A stretch of 40,197 nt of DNA from a bacterium (lineage in GTDB: Bacteria > T1Sed10-126), in contig PWHN01000106.1 in the NCBI GenBank assembly GCA_003554945.1, forward strand, positions 1 through 40,197, written 5' to 3'. The translations under genes and the position numbers were made by a program. Of this stretch, positions 8,826 through 19,031 are shown one piece after another (the first letter of the stretch is position 1; each line of letters begins with the position of its first letter). The notes beneath the pieces were generated by a model. The model saw only the letters and a program-made list of their open reading frames with translations. It ran no database searches and was not told the origin of the DNA.

Positions 8826-9013
8826 TAATAATCTGAGTGCTTGGTTCTCAGAACGGAGAAACTGCAAAACTGCTTCCTAAAATAGTAAAAAGGATTTCAA
8901 CAGAGCCTTTGTCGTTGAGCGAATAATTTATAAAAGTGAATAATACGACTGAACTTTAACCGGCTTACCGTCGATAATTGTACTAAAGCTTTTATCGAAG
9001 GGAGCTGGTTAAG

Positions 9014-16398: not shown

Positions 16399-17328
16399 GT
16401 GGGCAAAATTAACTCTACCCCTCCACGCGCCGTCCTGGACCTGGGGACTAATTCCACCCGCTTCCTGCTTGCTCGACCAACTGATGATAAGTTTGACTTG
16501 GCCGACGTGGTCTGTCGTGGTTCCCGGGTAACCCGGCTCGGTGAAGGGGTCGATGACGAAGGCCGGCTAAGTCCCCGGGCTATTGAGCGAGTTCTCGCTG
16601 CGGTTGAGGATTATGACCGCCAGGTGAAAGCAGAGGCTGGGAACTGGGCAGGGGCAATAGCAACCAGTGCCTGCCGGCGGGTGAAAAATAGCGACACGCT
16701 GCTGGAAGAGGTAGAAAAAATTATTGGCTGTAGTCCTGAGATAATTTCTGGCCAGCAAGAGGCAGCGTTGATTTATAAGGGGGTTAAAGCATCGCTGCCA
16801 CTGGCGAGTGAAGGGGTAGTGGCCGATATTGGGGGCGGCAGTACGGAGATTATAAATTATGAAGCCGGAGAAATAGTTAACCTCGAGAGTTTCCCGGTCG
16901 GGGTGGTTAGTCTGCGTGAAAAATGTGTTGCCGGCCAGCGCTGGGAGAAAAAAATGACGACTTGTGTCTTAAAACAGTTAAAAACAGTATTTTCAGGCTC
17001 TGATTTTAACAAAAACAGGCTCTATGTCGCCGGTGGCACCGGAACTACTCTGGCAGCTTTAAAATTAGAGCTGGAAGAATACGATCCCAATTTAGTTCAC
17101 GGGGAACACATTTTAATTGAGCAGTTACGCTCGATACGCAGCCGGTTGGAGGCACTCACGTTCAAAGAAATAGCTCGTTTGCCGCAGATTATGACGGGGC
17201 GTGAAGACGTTATTATTCCCGGCCTCTACATTCTTGAAAAAATTATCGACAGGAGCGCTGCAAAAGAGGCTATTGTAAGTGACGTTGGTATTCTCATCGG
17301 TCTGTTAATTGAATCAGCAACAAAATGA
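16399..17328 (+). CDS. ppx: Ppx/GppA family phosphatase
   Basis: A 309-residue member of the exopolyphosphatase / guanosine pentaphosphate phosphatase family (ASKHA fold), which removes terminal phosphate from polyphosphate or pppGpp. The N-terminal AVLDLGTNSTRFLLA phosphate loop, the CRGSRVTRLGEGVD segment and the second loop VVADIGGGSTEI are intact, as is GGTGTTLAAL near residue 214. It is the short form without the C-terminal HD-like domain. GTG start with AGGTGA six bases upstream. Which of the two substrates is preferred cannot be read from sequence. The region downstream holds a structured element. Confidence 0.9.
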   Translation: MGKINSTPPRAVLDLGTNSTRFLLARPTDDKFDLADVVCRGSRVTRLGEGVDDEGRLSPRAIERVLAAVEDYDRQVKAEAGNWAGAIATSACRRVKNSDTLLEEVEKIIGCSPEIISGQQEAALIYKGVKASLPLASEGVVADIGGGSTEIINYEAGEIVNLESFPVGVVSLREKCVAGQRWEKKMTTCVLKQLKTVFSGSDFNKNRLYVAGGTGTTLAALKLELEEYDPNLVHGEHILIEQLRSIRSRLEALTFKEIARLPQIMTGREDVIIPGLYILEKIIDRSAAKEAIVSDVGILIGLLIESATK

Positions 17329-17369
17329 AATTGTAATCTTCCAGGGGTATGGTTACAGATGTGTTATAG

Positions 17370-17641
17370 ATGAAGGAGGTATCTTATTATCTCATTCTCG
17401 CGGCCATCCAGGCTGCTCTGAGGTTTAAATCACCGGCATTGTAGAAATCCCAAAGCAGAATATAGTTTTGGACCCTTTCGTTACTCATTCTCGATTCGCA
17501 TCCAGCGAATCTCCGAGGTATAGAAATTAGTAACCAGCCCATCCAGGGCTACTAATTTCTATAAATCCGTATACGAAGGGTCCAAAACCTTTTGTCGAAG
17601 TTAATGAGATTTAAAAATCCGATAATAAGCACCTCCTTCAT
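17370..17641. other. Large structured element with three ATCCA-loop hairpins (candidate RNA or mobile hairpin element)
   Basis: An outer stem joins ATGAAGGAGGT...TTATTATC (17370-17391) to GATAATAAG...CCTTCAT (17621-17641). An inner long-range stem joins GTTTTGGACCCTTTCGT (17465-17481) to ACGAAGGGTCCAAAAC (17573-17588). Hairpin 1 (17397-17422) and hairpin 2 (17490-17517) have the same design: CTCG, a variable stem (CGGCC/GGCTG or ATTCGC/GCGAAT), loop ATCCA, a CTC bulge, then YGAG. Hairpin 3 (17519-17563) has a 13-bp stem TATAGAAATTAGT, an AACC bulge, AGCCC/GGGCT and again loop ATCCA. No reading frame is credible. On the minus strand the loops read TGGAT. The strand of any transcript is unknown; it could also be the leader of the gene at 17718. 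Confidence 0.7.
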
Positions 17642-17717
17642 TTGTAAACGAATTGGTGGGAGAAAACAATTAAATTAATTTTACGATCAGATAATCCAAC
17701 TGATTTGAGGGATAAAA

Positions 17718-19031
17718 ATGAAGCGCAATAAATTTTATTTACTAACCTTGTTTATACTGATAGTTCAGTTCTGGATACCTTCCTCAATCAGGGCCGCTGT
17801 GCCCGAGTCGCATCCTGATTACCTCAAGCAAATAGATGCTGACACGACAGAGTATCCATACAGCTATTCCGGTCGTGTTGAACTGGGGCGGGCGCTGGCA
17901 GAAGCCGGTAAGTCGACGGAGGCGCTTGAGCTCTATTCCGAGCTACTGGAGGAATATCCCGGGGACCCGGACTTGCTACTGCTGCGTGCCCTTGTGCACA
18001 CCTGGAGCGGCAACTACGACGCCGCTGAGAGTGACCTGCGGGAGGCTATTGAAGCGGGCGATGATTATGCCGACCACTGGCATCTGCTCGGTAACGTTAA
18101 GTTCTACAGCGGCCGTTCACAGGCGGCGCTGTCTGCTTACAATAGGGCGCTGGAACAGGACCCGGAACGGGGAGATATTTATCTTGCCCGGGCGCGTCTT
18201 TTGATTGCCGAAAATAACCTGGAGGAAGCCTTTACTGATCTGGAGGCGGCCCGCGAGTTGAGTGCTGACGAGACTGAAGTTCAGCGACTTTTACTGCAGC
18301 TCGAGCACCGCTGGAGCCTCGAACGTGAGTTTGGTGCAAGAAATTGGTTATTGACCACCAGCTACGACTACGTTGATGTTGACGGTAGGGATTCCTGGCG
18401 CGCCTATCAGCTCCTGGCCTCGCGTCGGTTTGAAAAGGGCTCATTAAATCTTGAACTGCGCCGCGAAAAACGTTTTGGAGACTATCAGAATGCTTATGGA
18501 GTGACCGGTTATTTCACTGAACTTTGGACTGGCGCCTGGGGAAGCCTGGGCTACTACAGCTCGTCTCGCTCTGATGATTATTTGCCGGATCATGATCTGC
18601 GGGTAGAGTTTCATCAAAATGTAGTCGACGACCTTTTTGGCCTGCTAAGTTATCGGCGTCTTGAATTTAGCGAAACGGAAGTCGATATATACGGAACCGG
18701 TTTTGAGTATTATTACAAAAATTGGTTTGGAAGATTAAAACTTGACTATTCTCGCGCCGACAGCGGTGGCTTGTTAAGCCAGCTGATGCTGCGCAATTAT
18801 TATCAAGGTGACGGAGACAATTATCTTGAAATTTCGGGCAGTTACGGGAAAGGACGTCGCCAGGATCAGTTTGTCGAAGAGAAAGTCAGCCTTGACTCCC
18901 ATTCCGTTGGCTTCGCCTGGCAGACCTATCTAACGCAACAACAGGGATTAAAACTCTCTTATGAACAGGTCGTTTACGACGATGAGCCGGACCGAAGGAC
19001 CTACAGTTTTGGTTTTAACTATCGATTTTAA
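17718..19031 (+). CDS. TPR protein with YaiO-like outer-membrane beta-barrel
   Basis: A 437-residue exported protein. A signal peptide (1-27, ending IRA-AVP) precedes TPR repeats (about 45-195, such as EALELYSELLEEYPGDPDLLLLRALVHTWSG cut into 34-residue units). From about residue 205 to the end, alternating aromatic and polar strands form a predicted beta-barrel that ends FGFNYRF, with a terminal phenylalanine as used for outer-membrane insertion. This matches the YaiO-type architecture and resembles the TPR-barrel exporters of secreted polysaccharides (PgaA, BcsC). GAGGGA precedes the ATG. It faces a convergent response regulator/HEAT/glycosyltransferase operon, suggesting one polysaccharide export system with the inner-membrane synthase. 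Confidence 0.82.
   Translation: MKRNKFYLLTLFILIVQFWIPSSIRAAVPESHPDYLKQIDADTTEYPYSYSGRVELGRALAEAGKSTEALELYSELLEEYPGDPDLLLLRALVHTWSGNYDAAESDLREAIEAGDDYADHWHLLGNVKFYSGRSQAALSAYNRALEQDPERGDIYLARARLLIAENNLEEAFTDLEAARELSADETEVQRLLLQLEHRWSLEREFGARNWLLTTSYDYVDVDGRDSWRAYQLLASRRFEKGSLNLELRREKRFGDYQNAYGVTGYFTELWTGAWGSLGYYSSSRSDDYLPDHDLRVEFHQNVVDDLFGLLSYRRLEFSETEVDIYGTGFEYYYKNWFGRLKLDYSRADSGGLLSQLMLRNYYQGDGDNYLEISGSYGKGRRQDQFVEEKVSLDSHSVGFAWQTYLTQQQGLKLSYEQVVYDDEPDRRTYSFGFNYRF

Follow-up and report, generated by a model that had tools for sequence, protein, structure and literature searches.

The structured stretch at 17370-17641 of the window (the whole piece of DNA analysed, 40,197 nucleotides long) consists of two small mobile DNA repeats, the second inserted in the first, which have a three-armed fold in common. 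The structure is real and not due to chance, yet it is not a single regulatory element. The reading we favour, and consider somewhat better than even, is that these are short mobile DNA repeats with a three-way-junction fold as their defining feature, which are REP-like, are mobilised in trans as folded DNA and were captured by MITEs in the host genome.

A search of the host genome revealed the region to be a mosaic, whose outer parts and inner part match different sets of repeats. When copies were compared side by side, both window repeats followed the plan P1 - TCATTCTC - P2 (with a CTC bulge) - CGAGG - P3 - AATCCG - P1'. A class-B MITE sits within a class-A MITE, and the features are arranged as follows:

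17325 to 17331, no strand: left target-site duplication (TSD) of the outer MITE A, ATGAAAT, overlapping the Ppx/GppA stop codon at 17326-17328
17332 to 17668, plus strand: outer repeat, MITE family A, with the imperfect TIR TGTAATCTTCCA...TGGGAGAAAACA
17370 to 17391, plus strand: outer P1 5' arm ATGAAGGAGGTATCTTATTATC, pairing with 17621-17641
17392 to 17423, plus strand: outer junction strand TCATTCTC, P2 hairpin GCGGCC-ATCCA-GGCTGC, CTC bulge and TGAGG
17424 to 17434, plus strand: outer P3 5' arm TTTAAATC..., split by the inner repeat (assigned from the uninterrupted homologues L025 and L026)
17435 to 17604, plus strand: inner repeat, MITE family B, its right TIR lost by truncation
17435 to 17450, plus strand: left TIR of the inner repeat, GGCATTGTAGAAATCC, inserted in the outer P3 arm
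17465 to 17484, plus strand: inner P1 5' arm, pairing with 17569-17588
17485 to 17518, plus strand: inner junction strand TCATTCTC, P2 GATTCGC-ATCCA-GCGAAT, CTC bulge and CGAGG
17519 to 17563, plus strand: inner P3 with a one-sided ACCA bulge and an ATCCA loop
17564 to 17588, plus strand: inner junction strand AATCCG and P1 3' arm
17606 to 17641, plus strand: outer P3 3' arm, junction strand AATCCG and P1 3' arm (GATAATAAGCACCTCCTTCAT)
17669 to 17675, no strand: right TSD of the outer MITE A, ATTAAAT

The TSD pair of the window, ATGAAAT/ATTAAAT, contains one mismatch. All hairpins and long-range stems described in the original prediction are present, but the three hairpins are parts of two elements: hairpin 1 (17392-17422) represents the outer P2, and hairpins 2 and 3 (17485-17563) are the inner P2 and P3. 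Likewise, the two long-range stems exist, but as the P1 stems of two repeats. The pairing of AAGGAGGT with ACCTCCTT, which had been likened to a Shine-Dalgarno/anti-Shine-Dalgarno duplex, is merely the P1 sequence of family A; the P1 sequences of the other families are unrelated and, judging from this comparison, the likeness is a coincidence of one subfamily.

The consensus motif is a three-way junction of the form P1 - TCATTCTC - P2 - CTCCGAGG - P3 - AAWYCC - P1'. RNA folding of 17360-17650 gave -109 kcal/mol with z-scores of -9.8 (plus strand) and -8.7 (minus strand), and none of 200 shuffled sequences folded as well. For the inner unit folded as DNA, the z-scores were -12.2 (plus) and -10.2 (minus), and DNA folding additionally paired the ATT of the first junction strand with the AAT of the third. 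The window contains two copies of the module CATTCTCG-N-CATCCAG (0.00 expected). In an alignment of 18 sequences 90.6% of the cells were paired, 23 of the 31 pairs were doubly changed and any one-column slide destroyed the pairing. A further alignment, of 69 sequences from several phyla, was fitted to the covariance model, which makes it lean towards structure; here, 90.5% of the cells were paired and 25 of 31 pairs contained double changes. Doubly changed cells numbered 551 versus 166 after shuffling, the covariation score was 0.52 versus 0.12, and the covariation collapsed once one arm was slid by one column. The earlier observation of a shared plan, with stems which differ yet pair, was confirmed on these relatives.

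The near-invariant positions (TCATTCT, CTCCGAGG and AA.CC.G) are all located at the junction; most junction positions were fixed by the genome-scan pattern, which makes their invariance outside the host genome partly a product of construction, and the host-genome alignment likewise shows near-invariant junction positions. As far as can be judged from the aligned copies, the junction strands are nearly invariant and the stems differ completely yet pair. The unit is about 130 nt long, and BLAST matches from copy to copy break off at these limits. In P1, pairing stops after about 24 nt and includes a conserved mismatch of two bases close to the junction.

A covariance-model search, which the original prediction had proposed for related genomes, was performed with a model built from 18 copies. 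In the host genome (2.2 Mb, 121 contigs) it gave 63 matches at E-values up to 1. The inner window copy was matched at 17482-17573 with an E-value of 1.9e-29, this copy being a member of the training set. About 60 motif copies, of no fewer than nine stem types, are present in the host genome. Twelve or more contig ends of its assembly lie inside such repeats (L047, L052, L054, L055 and other loci) and, therefore, copies are probably under-counted.

The host genome carries the unit within three clear MITE classes, distinguished by their TIRs and TSDs. Family A has the TIR TGYNTTCTCCCA and 7-bp TSDs; uninterrupted copies measure 194 bp, and in three of four other copies examined the same ends were found with perfect 7-bp direct repeats (AATTATA at L027, GATAAGG at L025, TCTAAAT at L021). 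Classes B/C have the TIR GGCTYTGTWGARATCC, which we take to resemble IS6-family ends, and 8-bp duplications; intact family-B copies of 200-213 bp with an 8-bp TSD were found at C98, C14 and C58. Classes D/E/H have the TIR ACTAAAGTTTTGCG and 5-bp duplications. Mini-MITEs of class C (66-114 bp) are devoid of the core motif. They had been considered as empty sites, which was rejected, and are read as internal deletions. Because these mini versions of the GGCTYTGTWGARATCC class lack the motif, it is dispensable for TIR-driven movement. The suggestion that the stretch might be a mobile hairpin element was thus borne out by the ~60 copies, the TIRs and the target duplications, together with empty and filled sites (see below).

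In several host copies (L023, L027 and L021) P2 was swapped for other hairpin cassettes, e.g. CCCAGCYGG...CCGGCTGGG. Such replacement cassettes, including CCGAGCACTCAAT...ATTGAGTGCTCGG, are common to several families. At L043/L048, family D is nested within a family-H-like P1, a repeated Russian-doll arrangement.

The gene at 17718 is a YaiO-type outer-membrane gene, and the repeats lie in its upstream region, where they had been proposed to form a leader. Riboswitch-like control of this gene would agree with that position. However, this motif recurs at about 60 other places in the genome, and the insertion lies between target duplications which overlap the upstream gene's stop codon. Because the motif is found in scores of unrelated contexts, the leader is unsupported, and a leader dedicated to the YaiO gene is effectively refuted.

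For the distribution across genomes, 84,980 species were scanned with a strict pattern, for which about two loci were expected by chance according to our own estimate. The scan gave 49 loci, mostly in Nitrospirota MAGs, with further ones in Patescibacteria, Omnitrophota, Sulfurospirillum and one Thermoplasmata contig. A match in Parabeggiatoa (L108) was rejected as chance, being the sole scan locus which failed the covariance models. One MAG labelled 'Nitrospinota' places in a Nitrospirota family. The motif was found in all 21 genomes that had supplied loci and, of 295 Nitrospirota genomes sampled, in 54; the highest copy numbers in Nitrospirota were 80, 57, 45 and 39 per genome. Elsewhere, two Patescibacteria genomes had six copies apiece, Sulfurospirillum had four and Omnitrophota had one. 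Covariance-model searches gave no motif in the only other sampled member of the host phylum nor in 57 genomes elsewhere in the domain, and no match was obtained in the viral contigs searched. The Thermoplasmata-labelled contig (L116, PWHR01000048.1) carries a family-D copy similar to those of the genome of the window; by this similarity, it is probably misbinned and derived from a related organism.

Most Nitrospirota copies are naked units of ~130 bp without TIRs, and no TSD signal was detected in 79 naked copies. The AS27 genome is an exception, with TIR-like ends TAAACCC..AATTGTCATT. The copies are intergenic, with 103 of 120 free of overlap with mechanically called ORFs. Nitrospirota copies start about 12 nt past stop codons and lie inside operons, e.g. 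trpE-trpG and dprA-topA (gene names read from sequence). The trpE-trpG gap is 2 nt long in two relatives, and six have an intact or damaged element there. In these six, P1 persists and P2 and P3 are largely replaced. The element was therefore gained or lost at an orthologous site; the empty sites could be precise losses. As P1 differs between families, it was considered whether the core inserts into pre-existing hairpins or whether the flank arises by inverted duplication. Both were rejected where the evidence bears on them, because P1 arms within a genome are related and diverged by compensation, and because the empty trpE-trpG sites hold neither arm.

Other sequences were seen in the same gap. 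At L302, where relatives carry the three-way-junction element, there is an unrelated insert with inverted-repeat flanks and a small ORF resembling a four-helix-bundle protein (23S rRNA intervening-sequence type). L304 and L306 contain a different hairpin-rich repeat, AAGCATGACTAACTTTCGCTTACC..., probably of another dispersed family. In the orthologous copies L299 and L300, P3 is replaced by a CCCCCTCAAATCCCCC...GGGGGACTTAGGGGG hairpin, which looks like a separate dispersed repeat.

The positions past stop codons and within operons would also suit a motif selected as RNA, i.e. an intercistronic or 3'-UTR mRNA element for stability, processing or protein binding, which was spread by transposition and is useful or tolerated. 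REP elements acting on mRNA are comparable, the fold is very stable as RNA and, in tandem gene contexts, the plus strand of the motif is co-directional with the genes in 41 cases and opposed in 17, a bias which leaves room for a role in the transcript. In contrast, orthologous copies are absent or have P2 and P3 replaced wholesale, and the mismatches do not show the excess of G-U over A-C expected of an RNA. In P2 and P3 together, 26 G-T and 28 A-C mismatches were counted; because both are equally frequent, there is no RNA-strand bias, whereas a small tRNA control gave 4:0. In Nitrospirota, the G-T:A-C counts were 8:15 and 8:11, and a second count gave 57 G-T versus 36 A-C, with P3 badly aligned there. 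In P1, 73 A-C versus 25 G-T mismatches were found, partly at fixed mismatch positions; this excess favours the minus strand, against the prevailing direction of transcription. The test on mismatches is a weak one, since symmetric mismatches would arise in decaying copies as well; the balance lends mild support to a fold at the DNA level and is not proof. Low G-U content had been considered as proof of DNA-level selection and was dropped, as a similar fraction was obtained for tRNA stems; the strand test uses only the balance of G-T versus A-C. Overall, selection as RNA appears rather unlikely.

The minus strand bears GGA in hairpin loops and had been proposed to form a CsrA-titrating RNA. A csrA gene is present, and the P2 loop has the GGA in 23 of 25 copies of the host and in all 18 copies of AS27. 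Among other Nitrospirota copies it is found in just 29 of 82, conservation is strongest in the junction strands (a comparison partly biased, as the junction was the search key), and the element is mobile and occurs in unrelated contexts. Titration of CsrA is, thus, a very improbable function.

Under the favoured reading of a folded mobile DNA, the unit would spread in the manner of REP sequences, serving as a folded DNA substrate in trans, and a putative enzyme would recognise the junction rather than the sequence of the stems. In the host of the window, MITEs may have captured the unit, so that their transposases would now copy it too; after insertion, it would be mostly passive between genes. 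We infer both the mechanism of movement and any cellular role. A candidate enzyme would be a Y1 HUH transposase of the same genome, which moves ssDNA hairpins in classical REP/RAYT systems. Consistent with this are the REP-like copy number, the intergenic sites, the conserved internal mismatches of P1, the absence of TSDs from Nitrospirota copies and the presence of Y1 genes in the host genome and in each of the 11 carriers that were tested first. However, of 35 Y1 genes checked none had a convincing element within ~1.5 kb, Y1 presence was not associated with the element (40 of 54 carriers versus 169 of 241 non-carriers), two genomes with at least 14 copies gave no Y1 match, and no GTAG-type foot was seen. 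A Y1/RAYT partnership is therefore supported neither by adjacency nor by co-occurrence, and we regard it as improbable. The negative results on adjacency and association also count against the favoured reading, as they link no enzyme to the element.

At the gathering threshold of Rfam, neither the window element nor ten loci holding the motif gave a match, and permissive searches (E-values up to 10) returned chance-level matches only. A literature search found no description of such an element. As far as these searches show, the element is undescribed, and it is real and widespread. It acts like a REP, is carried like a MITE and departs from the RAYT systems. REP and BIME sequences are similarly short, high-copy and intergenic, often lie just past stop codons and inside operons, and are mosaics of imperfect palindromes with conserved mismatches; they differ in being based on a single short hairpin instead of a ~130-nt three-way junction, and REP sequences have a GTAG foot and a flanking or correlated Y1 transposase (RAYT, TnpA-REP). 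The host units resemble MITEs in being part of elements of ~190-430 bp with TIRs, target duplications of 5, 7 or 8 bp and no transposase ORF. Unlike MITEs, one structured core is common to classes with different ends, and in most of the Nitrospirota genomes seen it lacks TIRs. ERIC, BOX and Correia-type repeats are also intergenic imperfect palindromes of ~100-150 bp with many dispersed copies, but differ in sequence, fold and phyla according to their general descriptions. The strong covariation and conserved junctions are as in a real RNA family of Rfam.

A conserved fold of higher order is unusual in short bacterial repeats, of which the well-known ones are mostly simple hairpins. In Nitrospirota, many groundwater lineages among them, the family is abundant, and it crosses phyla. 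Stems which are replaced wholesale around a fixed junction could easily pass for a riboswitch or ncRNA when covariation is screened for. Tentatively, and with less than even confidence, the element may represent an unrecognised class of mobile DNA, which uses a folded junction as its signal, depends on an enzyme other than the known REP transposases, occurs in several phyla and rides on unrelated MITEs. Identifying an enzyme that reads the junction would uncover either a new mechanism of structure-guided mobility or a branch of REP biology that has been missing.

Elsewhere in the window, a solitary class-C MITE end, GGCTCTGTTGAAATCC, lies at 8850-8907, with its minus-strand TIR at 8892-8907. 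It is joined within ~40 bp to a sequence similar to the left end of class-E MITEs, GCAGTTTCTCCGTTCTGAG, and this mosaic remnant adjoins an NTP-transferase gene.
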